DNA of 64,000 bases from assembly GCA_017540085.1 (NCBI GenBank), contig JAFYBQ010000039.1:1-64000 (forward strand), in the 5' to 3' direction. Below are positions 2,937 through 64,000 of this stretch, piece after piece. Origin of the DNA: Synergistaceae bacterium. GTDB lineage: Bacteria > Synergistota > Synergistia > Synergistales > Aminobacteriaceae. The notes under the pieces were generated by a model. It made no database searches. It saw only the letters and a list, made by a program, of their open reading frames with translations, and had not been told where the DNA came from. Position 1 is the first letter of the stretch. The number at the start of each line of letters is the position of its first letter. The translations under genes and the position numbers were made by a program.

Positions 2937-4856
2937 TTACCTGCCTTTCATGAACGACTCAGCTATCTTTTCCGCTGAGAGTCCCATTTCAGCGCGCACT
3001 GAGTCAGAATTTCCCGACTCGCCGTAATGATTCACTCCGAGTGTCTGAATTTTCGGGAGTGCGATTCCTTTTCGTACTGACTCAAGCACCATCACCGCAC
3101 CCATTCCTGTATTTGCGTTGTGATCTTCAACCGTCATGATGTGGCCGGTCTTCACTGCCTCATTGATTGCTGACATATCCGGCTCAAGCGGGCATGATAC
3201 GCCGTAAACAGAAACCTCGACTCCTTTTGACGCGAGAATGTCGGCGGCCTTCAGTGCGATTTGCGCCATGTAACCGAGCGCGAATATTGCGCCGTCTTTG
3301 CCGTCCCGGAGCTTGTCTGCCTTTCCGTATGTGAAGCCGTAACTGCCCGTGTAATATTTCAGCCCGTCAATCTTTGAGCGTCCAACGGCCATGCAAATAT
3401 CGCCCGGAGTTTTCAGCATCCATCGAGTTGCCCTGTCTGTCTGGTTCGGGTCAACAGGTACAACGAGCTTCCAGCCGAACATGTTACGCATTAATCCGAC
3501 GTAATCAATGCACTGATGAGTCTTTCCGTCCTCGCCAACGTCAAGCCCGACATGAGTCAGCACTGTCTTGTTGCCCGTGCGGTTAATGTCGTTGAGCCTC
3601 TGCTGGTTGTAGACTTCATCAACGCCGAAAACGCCAAATTCCGCCCATACGCTTACGACTCCCGCAAGGCTCGCAGTTCCCGAAGCTGTTGCTACTGAAT
3701 GTTCCTGTATACCGCTCTGAATGAAATTATCGGGGCATTCCTTCTTGAAGGCTCCTGTCATTACGGACGGGGATAAATCGCAGTCGAAAACGAGAATCGG
3801 AGTCCGGCCTTCCTTCTTGTAGTTGCGTTTGCCTACATCAGCGAGAGCTTTGCCAAATGCGCCGCGGTTGTCCGAAACTTTTTCGCCCTCGTAATCGAAC
3901 GGAGTCCCAGTGTCAATGTTCGGCGCGGGGGGAAAATCTATCTTCCTTCCTGCGAATGTGGGGGGATTCTTTCTGCGTTCGAGTGCCTTTGCGAGGGTGT
4001 CAGGTTCTCCGCCGAGATGAGCTACAATTTTCGCGTAATCGTCATTTGATACGGGCTTTCCGTGATAGTCGGGGATTCCTTCCATGATTAGGCCGTCTTT
4101 GCCCATGACCGTCTTGCACAAAAGCACGGTGGGTTTTCCGTTTTTGCCCGCGTTCCTGAGAGCCTCATAGAGTGCCGCGAATGAATGCCCGTCAACCTCT
4201 ACAGCCTCCCAGCCGTCAGCCTCCCACAATGCGCGAATATCACACGGCAAAATTTCCTGACGTGTTCCCGAAAGCTGTATGTCGTTCCAGTCGATGAGAG
4301 CCGTTAAGCCCGTGAGATTCTGACGCACTGCCATGCGCCGGGCTTCTGCGATTTGTCCCTTTGTCTGTCCTCCATCGCCCATGAGAACATACACGCGGCC
4401 ATGATGATTATTTGCCTTCTGTGCGAGCGCGAATCCGACTCCCGCTGAGAGTCCCTGTCCTAAATTCCCGGTGCCTAAATCGATTCCGGGAATTTCGCGC
4501 TCAACATGTCCCTGAAAAACTGAGCCGCACTGCCTGAAATGCGCCATTGCCTCTTCACGGTCAACGAATCCCCATTCCGCTAACGTTGCGTAGACTCCTG
4601 CTGACGTGTGGCCGTGAGAGATTACGACATAATCACGCGCTGTAGTGCTGCAATTTTCCGGCGTAAGGTCGGCGACTCCGTATACTGTCATGAACATCTC
4701 CATGCTTGAGAACGCTCCGCCGGGGTGTCCTGACTTTGCCGCGCTTACCATTGTGAGGGCTGTAATTCTCGCTCTCTTTGCTGATGTTTCGAGGGCTGTT
4801 ATCTGTTCGGGCGTTAATTTATCTGACGGGTATTTGTGGATATTGGGTAATGCCAT
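2937..4856 (-). CDS. tkt: Transketolase
   Basis: A full-length 639-residue transketolase, a thiamine-diphosphate enzyme exchanging two-carbon units between ketose and aldose phosphates. The N-terminal half has the ISHGHTSAGVYATL segment and the cofactor motif MGDGGQTKGQIAEA with the downstream Asn in LIDWND. The middle has the IQEHSVATASGTASLAG pyrimidine-domain segment with its catalytic Glu, and the C-terminal domain includes the MTVEDHN segment. A GGAGGAATCATT ribosome binding site precedes the ATG. It lies upstream of the xylulokinase-like and transaldolase genes and downstream of the aldolase gene, from which it is separated by a palindromic repeat. Confidence 0.95.
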   Translation of the reverse strand: MALPNIHKYPSDKLTPEQITALETSAKRARITALTMVSAAKSGHPGGAFSSMEMFMTVYGVADLTPENCSTTARDYVVISHGHTSAGVYATLAEWGFVDREEAMAHFRQCGSVFQGHVEREIPGIDLGTGNLGQGLSAGVGFALAQKANNHHGRVYVLMGDGGQTKGQIAEARRMAVRQNLTGLTALIDWNDIQLSGTRQEILPCDIRALWEADGWEAVEVDGHSFAALYEALRNAGKNGKPTVLLCKTVMGKDGLIMEGIPDYHGKPVSNDDYAKIVAHLGGEPDTLAKALERRKNPPTFAGRKIDFPPAPNIDTGTPFDYEGEKVSDNRGAFGKALADVGKRNYKKEGRTPILVFDCDLSPSVMTGAFKKECPDNFIQSGIQEHSVATASGTASLAGVVSVWAEFGVFGVDEVYNQQRLNDINRTGNKTVLTHVGLDVGEDGKTHQCIDYVGLMRNMFGWKLVVPVDPNQTDRATRWMLKTPGDICMAVGRSKIDGLKYYTGSYGFTYGKADKLRDGKDGAIFALGYMAQIALKAADILASKGVEVSVYGVSCPLEPDMSAINEAVKTGHIMTVEDHNANTGMGAVMVLESVRKGIALPKIQTLGVNHYGESGNSDSVRAEMGLSAEKIAESFMKGR

Positions 4857-4931
4857 AATGATTCCTCCTGTTAAATTGCTGTTCCTTCCCTATATTTCCC
4901 CTTGCAGTTACCCTCCTTCTGCTTGCGCTCC

Positions 4932-4996
4932 CTCCCCACTAAGTTAGGGGGGACACGGCTTGCCGAGGGGGGTAACACCTCACAAGGGGGGTGAAC
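4932..4996. repeat. Dispersed palindromic GC-rich repeat, copy 2
   Basis: A C-run, CTAAGTTAG and G-run palindrome is followed by the small hairpin CGGCTTGCCG, a G-run and TAACACCTCACA. About 46 bases match the copy at 35688-35750 with a single-base length difference. It lies between the aldolase stop and the transketolase start, in a 155 bp spacer with no gene. Confidence 0.85.
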
Positions 4997-5011
4997 AGCG
5001 GGGTATTCCTA

Positions 5012-5863
5012 TCACACTCTTCCGCAGCTGCCGATGACCTGCATTCTTTCTTTCACGTAGCGTTTTACCTCCTCCATTCCGTATGCGCCGTATTTTTTCG
5101 GGTCAAATACTCCGGGATTTTCCTTCATGTATTTCTTCACGCCGTATGTGTATGAGATTCGCAGGTCTGTCGCGTAATTCACCTTGCACATTCCCATACT
5201 CACACAGCGAATCACCTGATCGTCCGGGACTCCTGATGTGCCGTGCAAAACTAACGGGATATTAACGCGCTCATGAATCTTTGTGAGAACGTCAAAATTT
5301 ATGTGAGGCGTTCCCTTGTAGACTCCGTGAGCAGTCCCGACAGCAACAGCAAGAGAGTCGCACCCGGTTTCCTCAACGAATATTTTTGCCTCGTCCGGGT
5401 CAGTGTAGGGATTTTCCGACTGTGAATTGTCGAGGCCGTCTTCTTTTCCGCCTACCCTGCCTAATTCCGCCTCAACGGGAATATTAACGGCGTGGCAAAT
5501 TTCGGTTACTGTTTTTGTGAGGGCTATATTTTCCTCAAGCGGCAGCTTGCTTCCGTCAATCATGATTGATGTATACCCCGCGTGAAGTGCCTGCACCGCC
5601 ATAGCAAGCGAATTGCCGTGATCCAAATGACAGGCTACGGGGATTCGCGTTCGTCTTGCGGCGGCTCTTATGTTCGCGAAATAGAAATCAGCCCCGGCAT
5701 ATTTCACTGTCCCGGGAGTCGTCTGCATGATTACTGGGGAATTTGTTTCCTCTGCCGCTGAAAGTACAGCTAACACCATCTCCATATTCTCAACGTTGAA
5801 AGCTCCTACGGCGTATTTGTTTCTCTGTGCGTCAAGCAATAATTCTCGTGATTTCACAAGCAA
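5012..5863 (-). CDS. Class II ketose-bisphosphate aldolase (GatY/KbaY/Fba family)
   Basis: A 283-residue zinc-dependent class II aldolase that would split fructose- or tagatose-1,6-bisphosphate into dihydroxyacetone phosphate and glyceraldehyde 3-phosphate. The Zn-binding HLDHG is near residue 80, the second metal region reads EAELGRVGG, and HGTSG and VNYATDLR form the phosphate-binding part. The upstream GatZ/KbaZ-type gene favours a tagatose-bisphosphate or related role, since such proteins stabilise GatY/KbaY. The frame opens with TTG at 5863, only 13 bp after the gatZ stop, with a modest GAGAGA ribosome site; a GTG two codons later is an alternative start. The family is certain, the substrate is inferred. 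Confidence 0.88.
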   Translation of the reverse strand: MLVKSRELLLDAQRNKYAVGAFNVENMEMVLAVLSAAEETNSPVIMQTTPGTVKYAGADFYFANIRAAARRTRIPVACHLDHGNSLAMAVQALHAGYTSIMIDGSKLPLEENIALTKTVTEICHAVNIPVEAELGRVGGKEDGLDNSQSENPYTDPDEAKIFVEETGCDSLAVAVGTAHGVYKGTPHINFDVLTKIHERVNIPLVLHGTSGVPDDQVIRCVSMGMCKVNYATDLRISYTYGVKKYMKENPGVFDPKKYGAYGMEEVKRYVKERMQVIGSCGRV

Positions 5864-5876
5864 AATTTATCATCTC

Positions 5877-7181
5877 TCAATCGTAAATCTTAGTGCTTAC
5901 TGCGTAATTGTAATCCTCGCACAAAGCTACTACGCAATCTTTCACGAGCGCGGAAGCCTTCAGCGGTAATTTTCCGTCCCTGACTCTTTTGTGCTGGCGG
6001 GGCAAAAATTGACTCAGCATTCCCGCAGGTATTTCTACACTGTCAATGTTGGCGAATAATTTTGTGATTGCTGACTTGATTTCGGGTAGGCTGAAATAAT
6101 ATCTGCAACGGTCGGAATAACTGTACTTCCTCGCAATGTGCTTCTCCAATTCTGAGCCGTGATAATGTTTCTCCCAGTTGTGCGGATTTTCGAGCATTGC
6201 GGACTCTAACGTCTCAACAAAATTAGCGCGTTCATTTTCCGGGACTAGCTCACGCTCAATCATGCTGAGTGCGAAAAGTCCCTCACGTAATGCGAACGTC
6301 AGAGCCGGGCCGACTTTGAGAATCGCTATTCCGTCTTCTGCCATCTCGCGCAATTTTTCGGGGGGCTGATAGTCCGTTGAATGTCCCTCGAAAACAAAGC
6401 CGGGATATTTCCTCAATGTAGATGTGAGACTCGCCGCGTCATTCCTGCAATACTGGTGAATGTCCCTGTCGCCAAATTCGACTCCGGGCTGAACTACTAC
6501 GGCTATAACGTCCTGCCATCTGTCGGAGATTCCATGCTCCTCGAATTTCCGCTTGTAGGTCATTAGTGTAGTCTCAAAATCTTTCGGGCTTGTTACGGTG
6601 AGTCCCTCGTCATTCTGCGTCCCGCCGGGGATTGGCACTTCACTGCCTATGACGTATACCGGGCGCATTTCGCTGGGATTATTTTTCCTCATCTCCTGAT
6701 ATGCTTTCTCGCACTCCTCAAGCAATGCCGCTCCCCTTTCGGCGATAACGTCATCGGAGAGCCGCCCGGCAGGGTCATCAGCAACCTTCATGCTTGTGTC
6801 AAGATGAATCTTCTTGAACCCGGCCATGACGCAGAGACGCACTAATTCACGCGCACGGCTCATAGCTTCAGCCTCCGGCAAATTCGCCCACACAAGCGGC
6901 CCGATGTGATCTCCTCCGAGAATGATTTTTGCCCGGTCAAATCTCACCTTGTCCGCAATACCGTAAACGTAATCCCGGAAATCTTGCGGCTTCATTCCTG
7001 TGTACCCGCCGTACTGGTTAATCTGATTCGCTGTCCCCTCGATGAGAATCGGAGAGTCGAATCTTTTCCCCTGCTCCAAAATTGCCTCTATTGCGAGTTC
7101 GTTTGCGGTGCAATATGACGGTATGCCCGCGTGGATTCCTGATTTCCTTCGTTCTGAGATGTCAAGCAAAGGATTCCGCAA
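5877..7181 (-). CDS. gatZ: GatZ/KbaZ-type tagatose-bisphosphate aldolase subunit
   Basis: A 434-residue member of the GatZ/KbaZ family, known as the non-catalytic partner that stabilises class II tagatose-bisphosphate aldolase. Recognisable segments include GIPSYCTAN, GGDHIGPLVWAN, KKIHLDTSM, VIGSEVPIPGG and FEGHSTDYQ. The frame stays open upstream to 7229, but that extension runs through the intrinsic terminator at 7203-7236. I therefore place the start at TTG 7181, where an AAAGGAGT ribosome site lies 11 bases upstream and the protein begins LRNPLLDISERR. It is followed by the aldolase gene 13 bp later and preceded by a PfkB kinase, giving a kinase / partner / aldolase set for a ketohexose. 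Confidence 0.85.
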   Translation of the reverse strand: MRNPLLDISERRKSGIHAGIPSYCTANELAIEAILEQGKRFDSPILIEGTANQINQYGGYTGMKPQDFRDYVYGIADKVRFDRAKIILGGDHIGPLVWANLPEAEAMSRARELVRLCVMAGFKKIHLDTSMKVADDPAGRLSDDVIAERGAALLEECEKAYQEMRKNNPSEMRPVYVIGSEVPIPGGTQNDEGLTVTSPKDFETTLMTYKRKFEEHGISDRWQDVIAVVVQPGVEFGDRDIHQYCRNDAASLTSTLRKYPGFVFEGHSTDYQPPEKLREMAEDGIAILKVGPALTFALREGLFALSMIERELVPENERANFVETLESAMLENPHNWEKHYHGSELEKHIARKYSYSDRCRYYFSLPEIKSAITKLFANIDSVEIPAGMLSQFLPRQHKRVRDGKLPLKASALVKDCVVALCEDYNYAVSTKIYD

Positions 7182-7202
7182 CGTAAAAATTACTCCTTTC
7201 AC

Positions 7203-7236
7203 AAAAATAAAAGCCCCGCAAGTTTTCACAGGGCTT
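7203..7236 (-). terminator. Intrinsic terminator after the PfkB kinase gene
   Basis: On the minus strand AAGCCC and GGGCTT form a 6 bp stem around a 14 base loop, followed by TTATTTTTG. It lies directly after the PfkB kinase stop at 7254 and just upstream of the gatZ ribosome site, so it may end the kinase transcript or act as a partial read-through terminator. Confidence 0.7.
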
Positions 7237-7253
7237 CAATGTCTCATATATCG

Positions 7254-8195
7254 TTATGACTCCTCTATCATTTTGCGGACTGACTCAGGCGAGATTTTCC
7301 CCTCCATCGGCCCGAATGCGGCGGCGTTCAATGCTCCTGCTGCTGCTCCCATTTTCGCGCACTCTGCTAACGTCTTCCCCTCGGCGAGTCCGCAGATGAA
7401 TGCGGCATCGTATGAGTCTCCTGCCCCGGTTGCGTCCTCCTGAATGACTCTGTAGACTGGCTGAGAAACCTCAAGACCTTTGCGCGTGTAAATGCTTGAG
7501 CCTTTAGAGCCGTTTTTCAGCACAAGGACTTCAAGATTTTTATTGCTGAACACTGACTCTATTGCCTCGTCAAGATTTTCTTTTCCCGCAAACATTTTCA
7601 GCTCGGAGACTCCCGGCATTAATATTGATGAGCTTCTGAAGACTTCCTGCAACATCTCAAGCACCGCATTATCTTTCAGCATTTCGAGTCGTACATTCGG
7701 GTCAAAGGAAATTTTCACGCCGTGAGAGATCATCATGTTCATAGTTTTGACAATTTCCCGCGCGAAATTCACATCAGCCATTAACGAACAGCCCATTATG
7801 TGAAAATATTTCGTGTCCTCAAAGCCTGTGAAATTTCCGGGAGCTTTTGCCTTAACGCATGGGGAATTGTCCATGTAGAACAGAAATTTTCTTGAGCCGT
7901 CAGCAAAATACGTAACGAACGCTATACCCGTATGGCCGTCTTCAGGAATGATTACCCGGCTAACGTCAACGCCGTCATGTTTGAGCCTGCGCATAATGTT
8001 TTCGCCGAAATCGTCATGTCCGACTCCGCTGATTATCGCTGTGGAATGTCCGAGTCTCGCCGCCGTGCTGATAAATATACCGGGTGCGCCGCTTGGGAAT
8101 GGGCCGCGAAAATAATCGGACTCGTATAGCGGTATGTCTTCTTTCGGGCGCATTATCTCTACAAGAAGCTCGCCCATTGTTACAATTTCTGCCAT
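7254..8195 (-). CDS. PfkB-family sugar kinase
   Basis: A 313-residue ribokinase/PfkB-fold kinase that phosphorylates a sugar with ATP. It begins VTMGELLVEIMRP, has a substrate-binding GxG region (GAPGIFISTAARLG) near residue 35, and the diagnostic second PfkB signature DATGAGDSYDAAF with its catalytic Asp near residue 260. Members like this include fructokinases, 2-keto-3-deoxygluconate kinases and tagatose kinases; motifs alone do not fix the substrate. The GatZ-type and aldolase genes that follow suggest a ketohexose or ketohexose phosphate. It has its own promoter just downstream of the tRNA-Leu gene and an intrinsic terminator after its stop. Confidence 0.85.
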   Translation of the reverse strand: MAEIVTMGELLVEIMRPKEDIPLYESDYFRGPFPSGAPGIFISTAARLGHSTAIISGVGHDDFGENIMRRLKHDGVDVSRVIIPEDGHTGIAFVTYFADGSRKFLFYMDNSPCVKAKAPGNFTGFEDTKYFHIMGCSLMADVNFAREIVKTMNMMISHGVKISFDPNVRLEMLKDNAVLEMLQEVFRSSSILMPGVSELKMFAGKENLDEAIESVFSNKNLEVLVLKNGSKGSSIYTRKGLEVSQPVYRVIQEDATGAGDSYDAAFICGLAEGKTLAECAKMGAAAGALNAAAFGPMEGKISPESVRKMIEES

Positions 8196-8256
8196 GAAAA
8201 ATTTTTGCCCTCCCTTTGATGATGAGGATAAATAATTCTTGTGGGATTTGGGGAAA

Positions 8257-8285
8257 AGTTTACTATAATTGATGGGAAATGTAAA
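8257..8285 (-). promoter_or_regulatory. Sigma-70-type promoter for the PfkB kinase gene
   Basis: On the minus strand TTTACA (8285-8280) and TAAACT (8262-8257) are separated by exactly 17 bases, about 60 bases upstream of the kinase start. The pair is seen directly; promoter activity is inferred. Confidence 0.5.
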
Positions 8286-8293
8286 ATTTTCAG

Positions 8294-8375
8294 TGCGGAG
8301 GAGGGGACTTGAACCCCTACACCTTTAGGGTATCAGATCCTAAGTCTGACGCGTCTACCATTCCGCCACCCCCGC
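8294..8375 (-). tRNA. tRNA-Leu (anticodon TAG)
   Basis: The minus strand folds as a class II tRNA with a long variable arm. The acceptor stem is GCGGGGG with CCTCCGC and discriminator A. The anticodon stem TCAGA/TCTGA encloses the loop CTTAGGA, giving anticodon TAG (leucine). The T arm reads GGGGTTCAAGTCCCC. CCA is not encoded, so a CCA-adding activity is needed to mature it. Confidence 0.95.
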
Positions 8376-8392
8376 AAACTGTCTCTATTGTA

Positions 8393-9769
8393 TCACGACA
8401 CAGGGACTTCCATCGGGTAATTTCCGTCAAAACATGCCTTGCAGTATGAGTCCTCAGCGCAGACTTCCCGCAAACTTTCCTCGCTGAGATATGTTAATGA
8501 GTCCGCGCCGAGATATTCGCAGATTTCTTCCGGCGATTTCTGTGCGGCTATGAGCTTCTCACGGTGCGGAGTGTCAATCCCGAAATAGCACGAGAATTTC
8601 ACCTCAGGGGAAGCCGCGCAGACATGAATCTCTTTCGCACCCGCGTCCCGGAGATGTCCCACAATCCTCCGCAATGTCGTTCCGCGAACTATAGAGTCGT
8701 CAATGATGATTAGCCTTTTGCCCTCGATGTTCCGCCGAATCGTAGACAGCTTTATGCGTACAGCGTCATCCCTCATTGCCTGAGACGGTAATATGAACGT
8801 CCTGCCCATGTACTTGTTCTTGATGAGTCCCTCGCCGTAGGGAATGCCGGAAGCCTCCGCGTAACCTATCGCAGCAGGTATACCCGAATCAGGCACGGCC
8901 ATTACTACATCAGCCTCAATCTTTCGTTGCTGTGCTAACTTCATTCCGCACCTCCGCCGGAAATCGTACACGCTCACTCCGTCAACAATAGAGTCCGGCC
9001 TCGCGAAATATACCATCTCGAACACGCACAAATTTTTCCTGCACCAGTGAGACGGCTCAACCGATTTCAGCCCGTCCCTGTCGGCAATCACTATTTCCCC
9101 CGGCCTGACATCGCACAGAAATTCAGCGTCAAGAGCTTCAAGCGCGCACGTTTCAGACGCGAACACATAGCCGGAGTCATTCTTCAGCTTACCGATACAG
9201 AGCGGGTGAAGGCCGTATGAATCTCTCACGCCGATTAATTTATCGCCAATGGTAATCACAAGGACATACGCGCCCTTAATGAGGCTCATTGCGTTTTTGA
9301 TGCCCGCCTCGATTCCCCGCGAGCCGTGCTGGCATATTAGGTTGAGAATTGACTCGGAGTCGCTTGTTGTGTGGAAGATTACGCCCTCATCCGTGAGCAT
9401 TTCCCGGAGGCTGTCGGCGTTGACGAGATTGCCATTATGCGCGAGGGCTATTTCACCGAGACGGCACGAGGCCACTAGGGGCTGTGCGCTCCTCTGTGAA
9501 CCGTCGCCCGCTGTCGAATATCTCACATGGCCGATGGCGATATTCCCGGGGAGCTTCCCGAAATCATAGTCCCGGAAAACTTCCCCGGCGAGTCCCAAAT
9601 CTTTGCGGATTTCGATTTTCCCCGCCGAGTTCGCCGCAATCCCGGCACTTTCCTGCCCTCTGTGCTGAAGCGCGTACAGTCCGTAGTACACCAAGCGAGA
9701 CGCTTGCCCCGCCTCATCATTCAGGTATACACCGATCACTCCGCACTCCTCGTGAAGCTCATCAGACAT
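8393..9769 (-). CDS. purF: Amidophosphoribosyltransferase
   Basis: A 458-residue enzyme for the first committed step of purine synthesis, making phosphoribosylamine from PRPP and glutamine. The glutaminase nucleophile is Cys9 in EECGVIGV after a short propeptide, as in the Bacillus-type enzyme. [11 protein letters not shown] and the PRPP loop [14 protein letters not shown] are present. Cysteines that could hold the Bacillus-type [4Fe-4S] cluster are visible in NLCVFEM, KFSCYFG and the C-terminal [10 protein letters not shown]. The start overlaps the end of purC by 8 bases, indicating translational coupling. Confidence 0.96.
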
Positions 9770-10481
9770 TGCCGTTTATGCGCCTGAATATTTCCTCGTA
9801 GGCTTCCTCAACCCCGCCCATGTCCCTGCGGAATCTGTCCTTGTCGAGCTTCTCATTCGTCTTTGCGTCCCAGAAACGGCACGTATCCGGCGAAATCTCA
9901 TCAGCAAGAATGATACTGCCGTCAGGGAGTCTCCCGGCCTCTATCTTGAAGTCCACGAGCTTGACTCCGATACCCGCGAAAAATTCCCGCAGGACATCGT
10001 TGACCTTGTACGCCATTTCCCGAATCACTTTGAGTTCGTCCTCTGTCGCAACTCCCAAGGCTATTATGTGGCTGTCGTTGATTAACGGGTCATTGAGCGC
10101 GTCATTCTTGAGGGAAAATTCAAGCGTCGGACATTTCAGCGGGGTGCCTTCCTCGACTCCGTAACGTTTCGAGAATGATCCGGCGGCTGTGTTGCGGATT
10201 ATTATCTCAAGCGGGACTATCTCGACTGCTTTCACGAGGGTCTCGCGGTCGCTTAACTGTTCGGCAAAATGAGTCCTCACTCCGTTTTTCTCCAACAGTC
10301 TGAACATCATATTGCTCATCTTGTTGTTGATTACTCCCTTGCCTGTGATTGTTCCGTGCTTTAGGCCGTTGAAGGCTGTCGCGTCGTCTTTGTACTCGAC
10401 AATGTAATATGACGGGTCTGAAGTCGCAAAAACTTTCTTGGCTTTTCCCTCGTAACGCTGCTCTAATTTCGTGATGCCCAT
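9762..10481 (-). CDS. purC: Phosphoribosylaminoimidazole-succinocarboxamide synthase
   Basis: SAICAR synthase of purine biosynthesis, 239 residues, joining aspartate to CAIR with ATP. It begins [18 protein letters not shown] and contains the family segments [24 protein letters not shown] and [12 protein letters not shown]. The frame is open further upstream, but the standard N terminus and a GGAAGGAAC ribosome site mark ATG 10481 as the start. The 3' end overlaps purF by 8 bp. A small membrane protein gene lies 55 bp upstream in the same direction. Confidence 0.95.
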
Positions 10482-55641: not shown

Positions 55642-56403
55642 TTATTTTGCTGACGTGAAGCCGAATGACTCAAAAATTTTCTGCGACTCTGATTCTTGAA
55701 GGTACTTGAGGAACTTTACGGCCTCGTCTTTGTGTGATGACCGGGAAATTACAGCAGCCGGATAAATTACGGGAGTCTTGAGAGTCCCTGCAGGAGGAAA
55801 GGCAATAACTTTCAGGCCGTGAGTCATTGCGTCTGTCGCGTAGACTATTCCGCAGTCAGCAGCACCCTCGCGAACCTGCATTGCGACTTCAGTAACATTC
55901 CCCGCAAAAGAGATTTTCCCCGCATGATTCAGAGCGTCCCACAGTCCCATAGCCGTCAAAATTTCCTGCGCGTACATTCCTGCGGGAACGTCAGAATTTC
56001 CCAGCGCGATTAGGGTCAGTTTGTCCGTCCCTAAATCAGCGAACGATTCTATTTTTGCCGGATTAATTTCCGTTGTGGCCAATACGATTTTGTTCTCAAG
56101 AAGATTTACTCTTGCTGACGAATCTATGAGGCTCTCACTTTCTAGCGTGTCCATTTGCTTTTGTGCCGCTGATATGAATATGTCGCACTCTGCGCCCTCC
56201 ATAATTTGAGTCTTGAGAGTGCCGGATGAGTCAAAGTTGCATGTGATTTGTGTACCGGGATTGTTCGCTGTGTATAGTGCTGTGATTTTTTCTGTTGCTG
56301 ACTGCAGAGAGGCCGCCGCAAATATTGTGAGTGTTTCCGAGAATGCCGCCCGCGAAAATGTGAACAGCAATAAAGCCGTGATTAATGACGCAAATTTTCT
56401 CAT
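55642..56403 (-). CDS. modA: Molybdate-binding periplasmic protein
   Basis: A 253-residue solute-binding protein with a signal peptide (residues 1-22). It starts the mature part with LTIFAAASLQSATEKITALY and has the oxyanion-binding segments CNFDSSGTLKTQIMEGAECDIFISA and EGAADCGIVYATDA. The family binds molybdate or tungstate. An AGAAGGAGAA ribosome site precedes the ATG. A 95 bp spacer separates it from mobA, the largest gap inside the island. Confidence 0.94.
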   Translation of the reverse strand: MRKFASLITALLLFTFSRAAFSETLTIFAAASLQSATEKITALYTANNPGTQITCNFDSSGTLKTQIMEGAECDIFISAAQKQMDTLESESLIDSSARVNLLENKIVLATTEINPAKIESFADLGTDKLTLIALGNSDVPAGMYAQEILTAMGLWDALNHAGKISFAGNVTEVAMQVREGAADCGIVYATDAMTHGLKVIAFPPAGTLKTPVIYPAAVISRSSHKDEAVKFLKYLQESESQKIFESFGFTSAK

Positions 56404-56432
56404 GATATTTTCTCCTTCTCTTGATGGAAAGC

Positions 56433-56450
56433 ATAACCGTTTCCCGTTAT
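56433..56450. promoter_or_regulatory. Candidate operator upstream of modA
   Basis: ATAAC and GTTAT form an inverted repeat separated by 8 bases (ATAACCGTTTCCCGTTAT), about 30 bp before the modA start. ModE-type operators also carry ATAAC/GTTAT half-sites, so a molybdate-responsive site is possible. No regulator gene is in the window. Confidence 0.3.
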
Positions 56451-56498
56451 ACTCTGAGGCCGTTAATGACCGTCGGCCAAGCTGCCATAGAATTATCT

Positions 56499-57071
56499 TT
56501 AGGCTGAATGGCTCGGATTATCGTTAAGCCAGATTCTATAATCTTCCGGCGTGTTAATGTTCCGTAAAAACTCCCGCCCCCTTTCGTTAATGTCAACATA
56601 ATGAACGTCAATACGACTCAGAAATTTTTTCACGCTGAAATCTCCCGACCTCAAAGACTCCCGAATCATTCCCGCGCATGACACGCTATATATTCCCGTG
56701 AGAGGCTGAATATTCCCGTCAATCACAGGCACAGCGCACAAATCATTTTCACGGAGCTGTGAGAAAAGCTCATCGATAAATCCCGCGTCAATATCAGGAA
56801 CATCACAGGGAGTCGTGAAAACGTATTGAGTCTCAGACATCATCAGAGCCGTATAGATTCCTCCGAGAGGCCCGCAATCTTTCAGCAAATCCGGCCATGT
56901 GGGAAAATCGTACCCGTAAATTTGAGTCTCATCTCTCACGGACAATGAAATAATCCTGAAGCCCTCAAGCTGTGAGATTATGCGGTCAAGAAATAATTTG
57001 TGCTTAGGAGTTCCCATTCTTGACGAGAGTCCCCCGCATAAAATTACGGCTGTTGATTCGCGCTTAGTCAT
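56499..57071 (-). CDS. mobA: Molybdenum cofactor guanylyltransferase MobA
   Basis: A 190-residue nucleotidyltransferase that would attach GMP to molybdenum cofactor to give the bis-MGD form used by DMSO-reductase-family enzymes. The GTP-binding motif is VILCGGLSSRMGTPKHKLFLD, and GPLGGIYTAL and TTPCDVPDID follow. The start ATG 57071 overlaps the tatC end by 8 bp. Confidence 0.92.
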   Translation of the reverse strand: MTKRESTAVILCGGLSSRMGTPKHKLFLDRIISQLEGFRIISLSVRDETQIYGYDFPTWPDLLKDCGPLGGIYTALMMSETQYVFTTPCDVPDIDAGFIDELFSQLRENDLCAVPVIDGNIQPLTGIYSVSCAGMIRESLRSGDFSVKKFLSRIDVHYVDINERGREFLRNINTPEDYRIWLNDNPSHSA

Positions 57072-58986: not shown

Positions 58987-59538
58987 TTATGCTCTCATTC
59001 CCTTTTTGGGCTTGTAGTAGAGATTCGGCTCTGTCTTTTCGGGTGAAACGTCATCATTGACCGCCCGGACGAGTCCCGATTCTTTGCGTAATTCGTCAAC
59101 ATCAGCAAGGGTTAAGCACCTGCTTGTGCATGACGCAACACACACAGGAAGCTCGCCGCGTTTCAGCATGTCAATACAGCCGTTGCATTTCGCGGCCTTC
59201 TTTGTGTCCTCGCGAACCTGGACAGCTCCGTAAGGACACGCCTTAGCGCAAGCCCCGCACCCTATGCAGACATCTTCCTTCACGTATACCATCCCGGTGT
59301 CGTCGTCTTTCGTCATCGCACCTGTAGGACATGCCGCGACACACGCAGGATTCGAGCAGTGCCGACACATTTTCAGCGTGAACCAGACGAAAACGTCCGG
59401 GAATTTCCCGCGCTCCCTCTCCTCAATCGCATTGAAGTTCACACCAACGGGCAAATCGTTTTTGTCCTTGCATGAGACTACACACGCACGGCATTCGAGG
59501 CACTTGTTCATATCGTGGCGAAAACCTTTCTGGCTCAT
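58987..59538 (-). CDS. dmsB: DmsB-type four-cluster Fe-S subunit
   Basis: A 183-residue electron-transfer subunit with four [4Fe-4S] sites: CLECRACVVSC, CRHCSNPACVAAC, CIGCGACAKAC and the split pair CNGC / CVASCTSRC. This is the usual partner of DMSO-reductase-family catalytic subunits. It has no Tat signal of its own, so it would be exported together with DmsA as in the E. coli complex. It follows the catalytic gene by 20 bp and abuts the polyferredoxin gene. Confidence 0.93.
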   Translation of the reverse strand: MSQKGFRHDMNKCLECRACVVSCKDKNDLPVGVNFNAIEERERGKFPDVFVWFTLKMCRHCSNPACVAACPTGAMTKDDDTGMVYVKEDVCIGCGACAKACPYGAVQVREDTKKAAKCNGCIDMLKRGELPVCVASCTSRCLTLADVDELRKESGLVRAVNDDVSPEKTEPNLYYKPKKGMRA

Positions 59539-59558
59539 AGTTTATTCCCCCTCTCACA

Positions 59559-62138
59559 CTAGAATATTATTCTCTGAGGCCACAAAGCATCGGGCAGTGA
59601 AGGCTTGTCATATTTCGCTACTTCCGCAATGCTCACGAACGACTCAATGTCCGGCCCTGAAGGGAATGTGCCTGTCAAAACGTTCGGGCAGCCTCCGATG
59701 TCATAGCCGTCTTCATTGAGCTGTACCCATGAACCCTCGCCGAGCATTACGACTCCGGGCATGACTCGCTCTGTGATGTGAAGCCTGCGTACTACAGTCC
59801 CGTGATCGTTGAAGATTTTGACGGTATCATCCTCTTTGAGTCCGCGTGATTCTGCGTCAACAGGATTCATCAACAACGGAATCGGGAACGCTTCACGGAG
59901 CCACAATGAATTGCTGACATTTCCGTGCGCTCCTCTTGGGACGTGGACACTGCAAACCTGAAGCGGGTATTTCCCCTTTATGCCCTTCTCGAAATCCGAG
60001 AATGTAGCCTCGTAGCCTTCTGTTGACGGCTCATAGATTGCTATCGGGTGTCCCTCGTTCCATCCTGCTTTTGTTACCATTTCGGCCAATTCACCGCAGT
60101 AAATCTGAATTTTCCCGTCGCGAGTCTTGAGGGGATTTTTCTCCGGGTCATCGCGGAATTTCTTGTTGTTGATGTAGTAGAAAGCGTCATCCATTTTTCG
60201 CGGCACCTGGTAGCTTCCTGCCTCGCGTAATTCGCTGAGTGTTATTCGTCCCTGCTGAGGCTGTCCCTCAACGCCCATCGCTTTAATGTCATCGGCGGTA
60301 ATCGTCAAAAGAGTCTCCATCCCGGAATTGTCCGGCTTTGCGACTTTCGCCCCGGCCAACATGTTGAAGTTCTGCTGCTTCAGTGAAACGGGTTCAACTT
60401 CTTTCGGGTCAAGTCCGAGCCTCTTGCCTAACTCCAACGCTATCCATCCGTCATCTTTTGCCTCAAATAACGGGTCAATAACTTTCTGCGTCCATATGAT
60501 GACCTCACGCGCTCCGCCTAATACCATTCCGTCCCGCTCCCAAGGGGTTGTGATTGGGAGTACGACATCTGAGAACATAGCGTTGCTGTTGAGCAAAAAT
60601 TGATGAGTAACAATGAAGTCAACCTTTTTGTGAGCCTCGATGCTTTCCATCGTGTTGGCTGTCTGCGAGACTATGTTGCTATGGGCATGATATATCACGT
60701 GAACGTCCAAATCTTTCTTGTCGCCCTGTCCCGCAGTGTATTTCCCTGTGAGGATTGCCCGCCAGTGTTCATTAGCGCACATTCTCTCGCTGTTGGGAAT
60801 GGGATTCTTGATTGCCTTAACGCCTGTTGAGCCGGGAGCTACAAGAGCAGGGCCGCCTTCCGTTGAACGTTCCTGACAGCTGCACGAGAACGCACCGCCC
60901 GCGATCCCCACATTGCCCGTCATGGCCGCTAACGTTGTCTGAGCGAGGCAGACATGAGTCGCTTTGTCAGCACGCGCAGAGTTCCACGCAAAGAGAGCTG
61001 TTACGGGTTTCGTGAGTCCGACTTCACGCGCAAGACGGTAAATCGTATCAACAGGAGTCCCGCAGATTTTTGATGCCCATTCGGGAGTCTTGGGAAGTCC
61101 GTCAAGATTCCCCAAAACGTAATCCTTGAAGTTGAGCTTGGGATCTGCTCCTTTCGGCATATGCTCAGAGTCGAATCCTACTGTGCAGCGGTTCAGGAAG
61201 TCCCAGTCAATCATAGGCTTTTCGGGGCTGTCTTCCTTCAGCATAACGTAAGCCATTGCGAGAATTAGCGGTGTGTCGGTCGCGGGTCTTATCGGGATAT
61301 ACTCATCGGCGATAACGGAGGCTGTTGTTGTGTACATGGGATCTATCGCGATGATTTTCGCTCCGGCTTCCTTTGCGCGAATCAAGTTGTTCATTGCTGA
61401 AGGGTAACTGTTCCACGCAGGATTACTTCCCCAGAGGAGAATCAGTTTTGCTTTCACGAGGTCGAGTCGGTCATTCTGATTGTGAAATTTCCTGTCGTAA
61501 CCGAAAATCGGCCTCATTGCCTGCCTCCATGCACCGCGAGACCTGCTGCCGTATTTCGACATGTAACCGCCGTAAAGCCCAAGTACCCGGAAAATTTCCC
61601 CGCCCTGATTGTTGAAGTTCTCATCCATGAGGAATATTGACTTAGGGCCGTACTTCTCCTTTGACTCGCGAATCTCTGACGCAACAATGTCTAGTGCCTC
61701 GTCCCATGAGATTCTCTCCCACGTGTCGCGCCCCCGTAATGATTTGTCCCCGCCTCCGTGTGTCCAGTGAGTCCGCTTCATCGGGTACTTCAGCCTGTCC
61801 GGCCCGGCAACTTGCTGACGCTGTGCGTGTCCCCTCGCGCAGGCTCTCAGCTGCGGGTAATCGATTGAGTCGGGGTGAGTGTCATCGGTCTTGAGACGGA
61901 CAATTTTCCCCCCGCTAACGAGTGCTTTGATGTGGCAGCGTCCTCCGCAGTTATGCCAGCACGGAGCGTTTTTCCATTCGCCTTTTTCCTGTGAAATTTC
62001 CTGAGCCTCAGCGGGCGTTATCTTCTTGAGTTCGTTCTCATAGCCCGTTAAAGCCGTCAATGCCGAAACAGCCGCGCTCCATTTGAGGAAAGCACGCCGT
62101 CCCAGCTTGAATTTTGAGATCGTGTCAATTAATCCCAT
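59559..62138 (-). CDS. dmsA: Tat-exported DMSO-reductase-family molybdoenzyme
   Basis: An 859-residue catalytic subunit of the DMSO reductase family. A twin-arginine signal is present (GRRAFLKWSA, Arg14-Arg15, then a hydrophobic stretch). The [4Fe-4S] ligands are Cys60, Cys64, Cys68 (CWHNCGGRC) and Cys100 (RACARGHAQR). PDRLKYPMKR, ISWDEALDIV, the segment YGGYMSKYGSRSRG with a Ser where DmsA has its Mo ligand, and a C-terminal cofactor-binding domain follow. The substrate is not determined: DMSO, another S- or N-oxide, or a different electron acceptor. The start ATG 62138 has an AAGGAG site; an earlier frame extension overlaps torD. Confidence 0.9.
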   Translation of the reverse strand: MGLIDTISKFKLGRRAFLKWSAAVSALTALTGYENELKKITPAEAQEISQEKGEWKNAPCWHNCGGRCHIKALVSGGKIVRLKTDDTHPDSIDYPQLRACARGHAQRQQVAGPDRLKYPMKRTHWTHGGGDKSLRGRDTWERISWDEALDIVASEIRESKEKYGPKSIFLMDENFNNQGGEIFRVLGLYGGYMSKYGSRSRGAWRQAMRPIFGYDRKFHNQNDRLDLVKAKLILLWGSNPAWNSYPSAMNNLIRAKEAGAKIIAIDPMYTTTASVIADEYIPIRPATDTPLILAMAYVMLKEDSPEKPMIDWDFLNRCTVGFDSEHMPKGADPKLNFKDYVLGNLDGLPKTPEWASKICGTPVDTIYRLAREVGLTKPVTALFAWNSARADKATHVCLAQTTLAAMTGNVGIAGGAFSCSCQERSTEGGPALVAPGSTGVKAIKNPIPNSERMCANEHWRAILTGKYTAGQGDKKDLDVHVIYHAHSNIVSQTANTMESIEAHKKVDFIVTHQFLLNSNAMFSDVVLPITTPWERDGMVLGGAREVIIWTQKVIDPLFEAKDDGWIALELGKRLGLDPKEVEPVSLKQQNFNMLAGAKVAKPDNSGMETLLTITADDIKAMGVEGQPQQGRITLSELREAGSYQVPRKMDDAFYYINNKKFRDDPEKNPLKTRDGKIQIYCGELAEMVTKAGWNEGHPIAIYEPSTEGYEATFSDFEKGIKGKYPLQVCSVHVPRGAHGNVSNSLWLREAFPIPLLMNPVDAESRGLKEDDTVKIFNDHGTVVRRLHITERVMPGVVMLGEGSWVQLNEDGYDIGGCPNVLTGTFPSGPDIESFVSIAEVAKYDKPSLPDALWPQRIIF

Positions 62139-62175
62139 TGTGCAAAATGACTCCTTTCGTGAAAATTTTTGTATG

Positions 62176-62820
62176 TCAGCCAAGAATTTCACCGAGAAGA
62201 TTCATATCCTCAAGCACAAAGCCTTTGAGAATAATTCCTGCTCCCCTGTAAAATTCTGTGAGCGCGTATTTCTGAATGTCCCGCGAAAATTCCGAGACCC
62301 ATTGCGACAAATGATCGTCAAGAAATTTCCTGCTGTCTTTCAGTGCGTCTTCATTCCCCGCAAGCCGTAACATGAAATCAAGCTCGAACCCTATATGATC
62401 GTCTGCCTCATGAGGATAATTTTTCGGGATAAAGTTATATTTGAGATACTCCCGCCGAACCTCGAACGCCGTATCCTGATACAGTAAATGCTCGTTGCTG
62501 CGGTAAACAGACTCCCACGGCGGAGCAGGAAGCGCATACGGCCCTACGAATAACTGCGTGAAATCCCAGCGGACTTCTGATGTCATTTCGTCGTCTTTGT
62601 CTTTCTTGTCTGCGAAAAATTTTGTGATGAAATTTATTCCCGTGTCGATGAGATTGCCTTCCTCGCGGAACGGGAAACTGTCAAAAATTTCATTGTCCCT
62701 CATTGCCTGAAGAAGTGATTTTGACGGCTCAACGTAAAATATTTTCTTCAGAACGTCATAGCCGTATTGCCTCATCTCCATAATGATTTTGAGATCGTCC
62801 CTGTTAAGTTTTTCACCCAT
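62176..62820 (-). CDS. TorD/DmsD-family molybdoenzyme chaperone
   Basis: A 214-residue all-helical chaperone that binds the Tat signal of its partner molybdoenzyme and holds it for cofactor loading. The family motif is in the segment DFTQLFVGPYALPAPPWESVYR, followed by the EADDHIGFELDFMLRLA helix. It is placed 37 bp upstream of the DmsA-like gene, its probable client. ATG 62820 is preferred (protein begins MGEKLNRDDLKII, GAGGGC upstream). Confidence 0.9.
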   Translation of the reverse strand: MGEKLNRDDLKIIMEMRQYGYDVLKKIFYVEPSKSLLQAMRDNEIFDSFPFREEGNLIDTGINFITKFFADKKDKDDEMTSEVRWDFTQLFVGPYALPAPPWESVYRSNEHLLYQDTAFEVRREYLKYNFIPKNYPHEADDHIGFELDFMLRLAGNEDALKDSRKFLDDHLSQWVSEFSRDIQKYALTEFYRGAGIILKGFVLEDMNLLGEILG

Positions 62821-62922
62821 GATTAATTTTGCCCTCAGAATATGAATATCAATTGCCCCGATTAACCGCCGGGACTCTGAACGCAAAATTTCAGGGAAAA
62901 AGTGTAAAGAGGCTACAATTTC

Positions 62923-62973
62923 TCACGCCGGCGATAACATAATGCAGCACGTGCAAACTTGCAGGCCGTTCAT
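62923..62973 (-). CDS. Candidate 16-codon Cys-rich leader peptide (upstream of torD)
   Basis: ATG at 62973 opens a frame encoding MNGLQVCTCCIMLSPA and then TGA. GAGGAGGGG lies 22 bases before the ATG, better placed for a TTG that opens a six-codon frame ending TGA across the ATG (ATGA overlap), or for an in-frame ATT. The VCTCC segment resembles VCSTC in the small frame upstream of mobB, and the DNA is similar too. It may be a leader peptide; existence is unproven. Confidence 0.3.
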   Translation of the reverse strand: MNGLQVCTCCIMLSPA

Positions 62974-62976
62974 GTT
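62947..62976. promoter_or_regulatory. Shared upstream motif, copy A
   Basis: The palindrome GCACGTGC is followed by AAACTTGC and, after a short insert, CATGTT. The same elements in the same order occur at 63651-63676 upstream of mobB. It could be an operator or part of a leader RNA. Confidence 0.4.
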
Positions 62977-63043
62977 AATGTCAGACGCAATGAAATTCCC
63001 CTCCTCAATTTGTGATTGTGATTTGTGAGATTCTAAGCGTGTA

Positions 63044-63616
63044 TCAGTTCAGGCGCAATAATCCAATGTCAGTAATCAGCCATTCCGCAAACGCCCGGTA
63101 ATCATTAATCCCGAAAACAGGAACATCACACTCAAAAGGGACATCACTAATCACCGCAATATATTCACCGTCAGGAAGGCCATAATCCCCGCGCCGGAGT
63201 CCGATTCGCTTTAAGCCTTTCACACTCTTGAAGCCCTCCGCGATAATCACATCGACATCATGAATACGGGTCAATATATCCTCAAGCGGCGTAAATCTGT
63301 TCTCCATTATTGCCGAGTGAGTCCCGGAAGTTATTGCGACAACCTCCGCGCCTGCCTGCGTGAAACGGTATGTGTCTTTGCCTTCACGGTCAACCGAAAA
63401 ATTATGCGCGTCATGTTTCACGACTGCGACTCTGATTCCGCGCTTCCTGAGTTCGGGTATTAGCCCCTCAATGAATGTTGTCTTGCCTGAGCCTGACCAC
63501 CCGCAGACCGCGTAAACTGGTATATTCCGAATAATGAAAACCTCCAATTGTTTTTCGCGCTGAACATGAATTAGAATATCACAATCACAAAACATTTCAG
63601 GAGGAAAAATTTTCAT
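63044..63616 (-). CDS. mobB: Molybdopterin-guanine dinucleotide biosynthesis protein MobB
   Basis: A GTP-binding protein that assists MobA in forming the guanine dinucleotide cofactor. The P-loop is CGWSGSGKTTFIEGLIPEL, and VAVVKHDAHNFSVDREGKDTYRFTQAGA and IIAEGFKS are MobB motifs. The open frame starts at ATG 63616, but no ribosome site precedes it. The only good site, TTGGAGG, is followed by ATT at 63535, where the recognisable protein begins, so initiation at ATT (or at a TTG at 63547) is possible. It stands 224 bp upstream of torD. Confidence 0.88.
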   Translation of the reverse strand: MKIFPPEMFCDCDILIHVQREKQLEVFIIRNIPVYAVCGWSGSGKTTFIEGLIPELRKRGIRVAVVKHDAHNFSVDREGKDTYRFTQAGAEVVAITSGTHSAIMENRFTPLEDILTRIHDVDVIIAEGFKSVKGLKRIGLRRGDYGLPDGEYIAVISDVPFECDVPVFGINDYRAFAEWLITDIGLLRLN

Positions 63617-63626
63617 GCCGTCAAAA

Positions 63627-63671
63627 TTAACGTGAGCAGTAAAAATTTATGCACGTGCTGCAAACTGCCAT
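63627..63671 (-). CDS. Candidate 14-codon Cys-rich leader peptide (upstream of mobB)
   Basis: ATG at 63671 opens a frame encoding MAVCSTCINFYCSR and then TAA, 10 bp before the mobB open frame. AGAGG lies about 10 bases upstream of the ATG. It resembles the frame at 62923-62973 in sequence and placement. Expression is unproven. Confidence 0.3.
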   Translation of the reverse strand: MAVCSTCINFYCSR

Positions 63672-63676: not shown

Positions 63677-63807
63677 TACGGCCTCTGCGATTCCTTCTTC
63701 ACTTTCCGATTAACTTTCAGGCAGTCAAAATCATAAAACGTTCGGTGAAAATTCAGGGGGTAATTTCACGCCCTCAGAATTAATTTATACAAGGAGTGAT
63801 TTTTTCC

Positions 63808-64000
63808 ATGCGTAAAATTTTAGGCGTACTCCTCGTTTTTGCGGTAGTGTTCTCGTTCGCTTCCGTATCATTCGCAGAGTACAAAGGCACAGTAACATTT
63901 GACGTAAACCTCAAAGACGCGGCAAAAGCTGAGAAAGCTGAATTGTGGCTCCCCTATCCTATGTCAGACGCGAATCAGACAATAACGCTTGTTGACGTGA
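63808..64000 (+). CDS. Secreted transglutaminase-like protein, N-terminal part (runs off the window)
   Basis: Only the first 64 codons are present. A signal peptide (residues 1-22, ending SFA) is followed by EYKGTVTFDVNLKDAAKAEKA and then LWLPYPMSDANQTI. The last segment matches the N-terminal part of secreted proteins with a transglutaminase-like (papain-fold) domain found in anaerobes, so that domain is expected beyond the window. AAGGAGTGAT is well placed before the ATG. It is divergent from mobB. Confidence 0.6.
   Translation, partial: MRKILGVLLVFAVVFSFASVSFAEYKGTVTFDVNLKDAAKAEKAELWLPYPMSDANQTITLVDV

Follow-up and report, generated by a model that had tools for sequence, protein, structure and literature searches.

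Introduction

Bacterial SECIS elements (bSECIS), for example that of E. coli fdhF, consist of a UGA and, a short distance behind it, a small hairpin whose tip has G and G/U. In E. coli, UGA recoding depends on the selenium in the medium (PMC4513850). According to the citation in PMC8124441 of Thanbichler and Boeck (2002, EMBO J 21:6925), a SECIS-like element also occurs in the E. coli selAB leader, that is, a SECIS-type RNA in the 5′ UTR that regulates a selenium gene. In the trp, his and cys attenuators, the progress of the ribosome on a short frame senses aminoacyl-tRNA and selects between alternative RNA pairings, while the Moco riboswitch (RF01055) is a cis-regulatory RNA of Mo-enzyme operons. 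Bacterial selenium sensing is little understood, the published candidates being the selAB leader element and a regulator of the LysR type, and no bacterial leader that senses selenium by UGA recoding was found in the open-access literature.

Here, two elements, A and B, are described in a 64,000-nt stretch (the window) of a Synergistaceae genome, along with the family to which they belong; 37 such leaders, from two genera of Synergistaceae, were analysed. Like bSECIS, they carry a UGA with such a hairpin close behind it and are present only alongside SelB and tRNA-Sec; unlike bSECIS, they are very short 5′ UTR frames before other genes, and the peptide encoded after the UGA is not conserved. 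The selAB element reportedly has no Sec UGA or leader frame, whereas here a leader frame with a UGA is found before many different operons. As in the amino-acid attenuators, the leader frame belongs to the 5′ UTR of an operon of related metabolism, here one of selenium-linked genes, but the sensed codon would be UGA, contested by Sec and a release factor, instead of a run of sense codons, and most leaders are without a clear terminator. One copy of the Moco riboswitch is located nearby, from which the leaders differ in structure, in possessing a reading frame and in giving no covariance model match. Judging from sequence, this UGA leader family of rumen and gut Synergistaceae is probably a selenium-sensing switch for selenium-linked genes.

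Results

Two inverted copies of one element flank mobB

A repeat search of the window identified an inverted pair of 37 nt with 70% complementarity (62943-62979 and 63626-63662) and a perfect inverted pair of 14 nt (TTTGTGATTGTGAT, 100% complementary; 63009-63022 and 63578-63591), a likeness between the two loci above chance. A preliminary description had reported two similar Cys-rich micro-frames of the same strand and placement, upstream of torD and of mobB, and indeed the minus strand has the strings AACATG and GTTTGCA(GCA)CGTGC near 62975-62950 and near 63674-63651, where both peptides can be read. The shared DNA is real, but the frames of both peptides and the strand of one were mistaken: the true copies are inverted, A on the minus and B on the plus strand, with mobB (minus strand) between them, and therefore the second peptide (MAVCSTCINFYCSR), upstream of mobB, runs antisense to element B, which forms the 5′ UTR of an operon on the plus strand. 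The palindrome GCACGTGC within the shared string had led to the alignment of the wrong strand of the second copy. The ATG of the first peptide (MNGLQVCTCCIMLSPA) overlaps the UGA of element A in the -1 frame. In G010, a near relative, this frame is closed (MNSL*); relatives do not keep the Cys-rich frames, and most of the 37 leaders have no Cys-rich version. The earlier guess of a nutrient-sensing leader peptide survives as to a conserved leader frame in the 5′ UTRs, but neither as to those peptides nor as to the strand of the second copy, and its cysteine or metal version is unsupported because the Cys-rich frames are not conserved; what is conserved is a different frame, its UGA and, 11-14 nt further on, a hairpin, and their confinement to Sec-decoding genomes points to selenium instead of cysteine.

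Both elements show the same order of parts, namely a -10-like box, SD, a six-codon frame, UGA, 14 nt and the hairpin (Table 1), and TAGAAT, TAAAAT or TATAAT stands at the -10-like position in most A-type and B-type leaders. Element A precedes torD-dmsA, for which the torD start is placed at the ATG at 62820 in preference to the less likely nominal TTG (62886); the dmsA and dmsB matches are both under the curated cut-offs. In the relative G030, the counterpart of the element A arm pair is ACCGTCGG/CCGGCGGT. Element B precedes the transglutaminase/ArsS operon (positions 3797-10286 of locus L033; 63808 onward in the window), which encodes a transglutaminase-like protein, two DedA/TVP38 proteins, YdjY, a dicluster protein, ArsS (TIGR04167, rSAM_SeCys, in a Cys form with an SSCGG end) and the glycosyltransferases TIGR04283 and TIGR04282.

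Table 1. Positions of the parts of elements A and B and of the genes behind them in the window.
Feature	Position	Strand	Basis or remark
A: -10-like box TAGAAT	63030-63035	-	pattern only
A: Shine-Dalgarno GGAGGGG	62998-63004	-	sequence; kept in G010, G031, G030, G006
A: leader frame TTG CGT CTG ACA TTA ACA UGA...TAG	62913-62990	-	putative read-through; predicted product MRLTLT-U-TACKFARAALCYRRREKL*, start 62990, TAG 62915-62913
A: UGA, proposed Sec codon / conditional stop	62970-62972	-	UGA in 37/37 leaders
A: SECIS-like apical hairpin TGCA-CGTGC-TGCA	62943-62955	-	sequence pattern
A: alternative-pairing 5′ arm ATCGCCGG	62928-62935	-	pairs with 62865-62872
A: alternative-pairing 3′ arm CCGGCGGT	62865-62872	-	overlaps terminator-like hairpin 62855-62875
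A: torD/dmsD-type chaperone gene	62176-62820	-	Pfam PF02613; homologue starts
A: dmsA/dmsB, downstream of torD	58987-62192	-	TIGR02166, TIGR02951 (DMSO/selenate reductase family)
B: -10-like box TAGAAT	63572-63577	+	kept in most B-type leaders
B: Shine-Dalgarno GGAGG	63600-63604	+	sequence
B: leader frame ATG CCG TCA AAA TTA ACG UGA...TAA	63615-63713	+	sequence; predicted read-through product MPSKLT-U-AVKIYARAANCHVDTASAIPSSLSD*, TAA 63711-63713
B: UGA, proposed Sec codon / conditional stop	63633-63635	+	sequence
B: SECIS-like apical hairpin TGCA-CGTGC-TGCA	63650-63662	+	identical to element A hairpin
B: switch segment ACTGCC	63664-63669	+	pairs with upstream GCAG(T) beside UGA, or downstream GGCAGT
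B: GGCAGT	63720-63725	+	kept in 8/8 B-type leaders
B: first operon gene, transglutaminase-like	63808-64000	+	ATG at 63808; operon runs past window

An Rfam scan of the region gave no match over elements A or B, and its sole match was the Moco/tungsten riboswitch RF01055 6 kb away (56396-56530, minus strand, 59.8 bits), which shares the strand of the torD-dms genes and lies downstream of them. As to mobB itself (63530-63547, minus strand), the conserved N-terminus that follows its SD GGAGG offers neither ATG nor GTG, and an in-frame TAG lies just upstream in G010; its start codon is therefore probably AUU (63535), as in infC.

The leaders form a family of discrete cassettes

The first pattern search used the hairpin alone and did not require the UGA. 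Further copies of the motif were indeed present in the genus, TGCACGTGNTGCA occurring 46 times in 43 congeneric genomes versus 2 times for the reversed control; about two thirds of these copies lie in short SD-led frames right after the UGA, and the others in coding sequence, unrelated places or a different repeat. A pattern search of 188 genomes across the phylum, together with a covariance model search of 83 genomes of the family, added a second genus and variants, one of which (L176, TGCA-GGTGC-TGCA) has the loop GGTGC and retains the GU tip. The hosts are Synergistaceae or Fretibacterium-like MAGs, mostly from the rumen, and beyond Synergistaceae a genome scan of 32 stretches, like a single viral hit, yielded only chance matches, with no convincing SD-start-UGA frame. 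Matches such as L079, L081, L085 and L102-L105 were discarded, lying in coding sequence or having no leader frame, as were L090-L092 in G004 and G022, which belong to the different repeat; this repeat reads TTCCCCCGTAAGGGAATC...TGCACGTGGTGCACCCCCCT and is found in G004, G022 and G061 (L090, L091, L092 and L077). Several orthologues without a leader (L243, L251, L254, L258 and L259) still have their own SD and a similar upstream region, and therefore the leader is a discrete, separate cassette.

The UGA is invariant and in frame with the hairpin

Nearly all 37 leaders consist of SD, a start codon, 3-11 codons and UGA, an arrangement that suggests translation. The stop-like codon is UGA in every one of them, and in the window and the other loci analysed TGA accounts for 26% of the stops that end long open frames. 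The hairpin follows the UGA after 14 nt in 26 leaders, 11 nt in six, 13 nt in two, and 16, 17 and 20 nt in one each, so that in 34 of the 37 the spacing (11, 14, 17 or 20 nt) keeps one frame across the UGA and GCA-CGT-GNT-GCA, and the frame is broken in three (13 nt twice, 16 nt once); because many leaders are mutually related, these UGA and frame statistics are suggestive and not a strict test. The peptides before the UGA vary greatly (MHFM, MRVL, MPSKLT, MHRVFT, MRRTASTYGLT). Substitutions after the UGA fall evenly on the three codon positions (29/28/27), and 53 of the changed codons are non-synonymous as against 13 synonymous; the post-UGA peptide is therefore not conserved, as expected of a leader rather than a conserved protein. 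The base 5′ of the UGA is A, G or T and never C in the 37 leaders (in the window, 62973 on the minus and 63632 on the plus strand), so that an NTG start (ATG, GTG or TTG) always overlaps the UGA; the missing C could reflect reinitiation, structure or chance.

The hairpin takes the form TGCA-CGTGN-TGCA in all leaders except the GGTGC variant. The distance from the UGA to the apical loop is 18 nt in 26 leaders, 15 nt in six and 17-24 nt in five, the bSECIS criterion being 16-37 nt. Of the 37 leaders, 34 pass the generic bSECIS rule (PMC13188914), but so do 29 of 44 ordinary TGA stops, and with an energy limit the figures are 26/37 versus 22/44; since ordinary stops also pass, the published rule is too lax to help. 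The leader hairpin differs in sequence from the selD SECIS, and from the fdhF element in its apical loop, CGUGN. A search for FdhA as a reference SECIS source returned no UGA-containing FdhA, and its only strong matches, from four genomes, were to the DmsA that belongs to this locus. In alignment A2 the apical helix does not vary and therefore offers no covariation, and helix 1 pairs in just 72% of the cells of that alignment. A common lower stem was considered and rejected: its register differs by type, B pairing 5 nt further out than A, and therefore no single long helix fits all types.

The leaders accompany Sec decoding and selenium-linked genes

SelB was over the cut-off in 23 of 43 genomes of the genus, which include all 16 leader-bearing ones, and none of the 20 SelB-lacking genomes has a leader (Fisher p=9.4e-7, the related genomes not being independent); the genes behind the leaders are themselves confined to SelB-positive genomes, the ABC permease and TDT genes occurring almost only there (one fragment in G018), which speaks for a selenium regulon and at the same time confounds this correlation. 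More than one SelB is over the cut-off in some species of the genus (G020, G019). The host encodes SelB, SelD and tRNA-Sec, the last of which (anticodon TCA) adjoins the YedE selenium transporter in the genome of the window. Sec decoding appears active, since SelD carries an in-frame UGA: the best SelD match contains an in-frame TGA in 17 of the 18 SelD-bearing genomes, the window's own included, and a second fragment does so in the 18th, the context being LSHxxG-UGA-AAKIGP in most.

The genes behind the leaders comprise YedF (TIGR03527), an SaoP-like ABC permease, an SsuA-like binding protein, a TDT transporter, the DMSO/selenate-family reductase (torD-dmsA), the ArsS rSAM_SeCys operon and, as named by eye, a 2-hydroxyacyl-CoA dehydratase-like protein and a rhodanese. 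Several of them match published selenium neighbourhoods, in which YedF occurs with a transglutaminase-like enzyme and 2-hydroxyglutaryl-CoA dehydratase (PMC5322559). The TDT genes without a leader (L252, L255, L256 and L266) follow a small CCGVCV gene that is DUF3343-like by eye; DUF3343 is selenium-linked in the same study (PMC5322559).

The segment after the hairpin can pair downstream in several leader types

Behind the hairpin, several leader types have a segment that matches, by complementarity, another some 30-90 nt further downstream, the partners being ACTGCC/GGCAGT in B, ATCGCCGG/CCGGCGGT in A, CTGCTGC/GCAGCAG in C and other sequences elsewhere, and it pairs there far more strongly than shuffled sequence does. 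Over 10 leader types, the mean z of this pairing was -1.58 +/- 0.56, versus -0.50, -0.55 and +0.20 in three controls. It is strongest in B, C and C2, also strong in one rhodanese leader and the DCCP leader, and absent in TDT and most second-genus leaders. When a ribosome footprint at the UGA was masked in folding, the B and C leaders (L033, plus strand; L106, minus strand) shifted to the downstream pairing. In the A leader of the window, a terminator-like hairpin (62875-62855) overlaps the downstream arm, its frequency being no higher than in shuffles, and across leader types no consistent intrinsic terminator and no consistent U-run after the pairing were found.

Discussion

Based on these findings, we propose, with a probability of roughly 0.7, that each element is a selenium-responsive translated leader. 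First, ribosomes would start at the strong SD, translate the 3-11 codons and reach the UGA. With ample selenium, the hairpin 11-20 nt behind the UGA would hold SelB-GTP-Sec-tRNA, Sec would be inserted, and the ribosome would continue for about 12-37 codons through the hairpin and the switch segment; when selenium is scarce, RF2 would terminate at the UGA. The final position of the ribosome could then decide between two pairings of the switch segment (ACTGCC in B, ATCGCCGG in A), one directed back to the UGA and the other to a segment some 30-90 nt further on, and the chosen pairing would set the expression of the downstream selenium-linked operon. As to direction, expression at low selenium is our guess, because the forward pairing in the window's A leader competes with the terminator-like hairpin. 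With somewhat less assurance, we also favour a new class of regulatory RNA in Fretibacterium-like Synergistaceae, in which Sec-tRNA/SelB and release factor 2 would contend at a UGA with a miniature SECIS and the recoding itself would be the sensor for the whole selenium regulon.

The most probable rival is an ordinary leader peptide ending at the UGA, an arrest peptide or attenuator without recoding, whose hairpin binds a protein or metabolite. TnaC is an arrest peptide with a UGA stop, the conserved hairpin could bind another factor, the post-UGA peptide is not conserved, and the restriction of the downstream genes to SelB-positive genomes suits this reading as well, under which the leaders would co-occur with SelB because their target genes belong to selenium metabolism. 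However, it does not lead one to expect the invariance of the UGA, the frame retained in 34 of 37 leaders or a GU-tipped hairpin at SECIS distance, and the peptides before the UGA differ greatly, unlike arrest peptides, so that we regard it as unlikely. Small genuine selenoproteins of about 15-45 residues with a functional Sec product are considerably less probable: although a UGA and a SECIS-like hairpin with a good SD would serve them, and a Cys often lies near the end, the C-terminal sequence and length vary freely, there is no codon-position bias, and one and the same cassette is found before unrelated operons and is missing at the orthologous loci of relatives.

That GCACGTGC is a DNA operator, bound by a regulator and read as peptides by chance, would agree with a palindrome that is near-identical downstream of many promoters, but it is located downstream of both promoter and SD at a fixed spacing from an in-frame UGA, the fifth loop base is free and breaks the 8-bp palindrome in many copies, and the orientation of the element follows the downstream gene, which makes this account very improbable. 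Cys-rich micropeptides that sense cysteine or bind metal can practically be dismissed, since the frames, while existing in the window, are closed or absent in relatives, G010 included, and the second is antisense to element B.

If the proposed selenium-responsive translated leader is true, it would provide a direct and testable selenium sensor in which UGA recoding is the sensor. It would also mark the TDT transporter, the SaoP-like ABC transporter, YedF, the DMSO/selenate-family reductase and the ArsS operon as selenium-regulated in these bacteria. Stop-codon recoding would then act as a regulatory input, and not for the making of a selenoenzyme.
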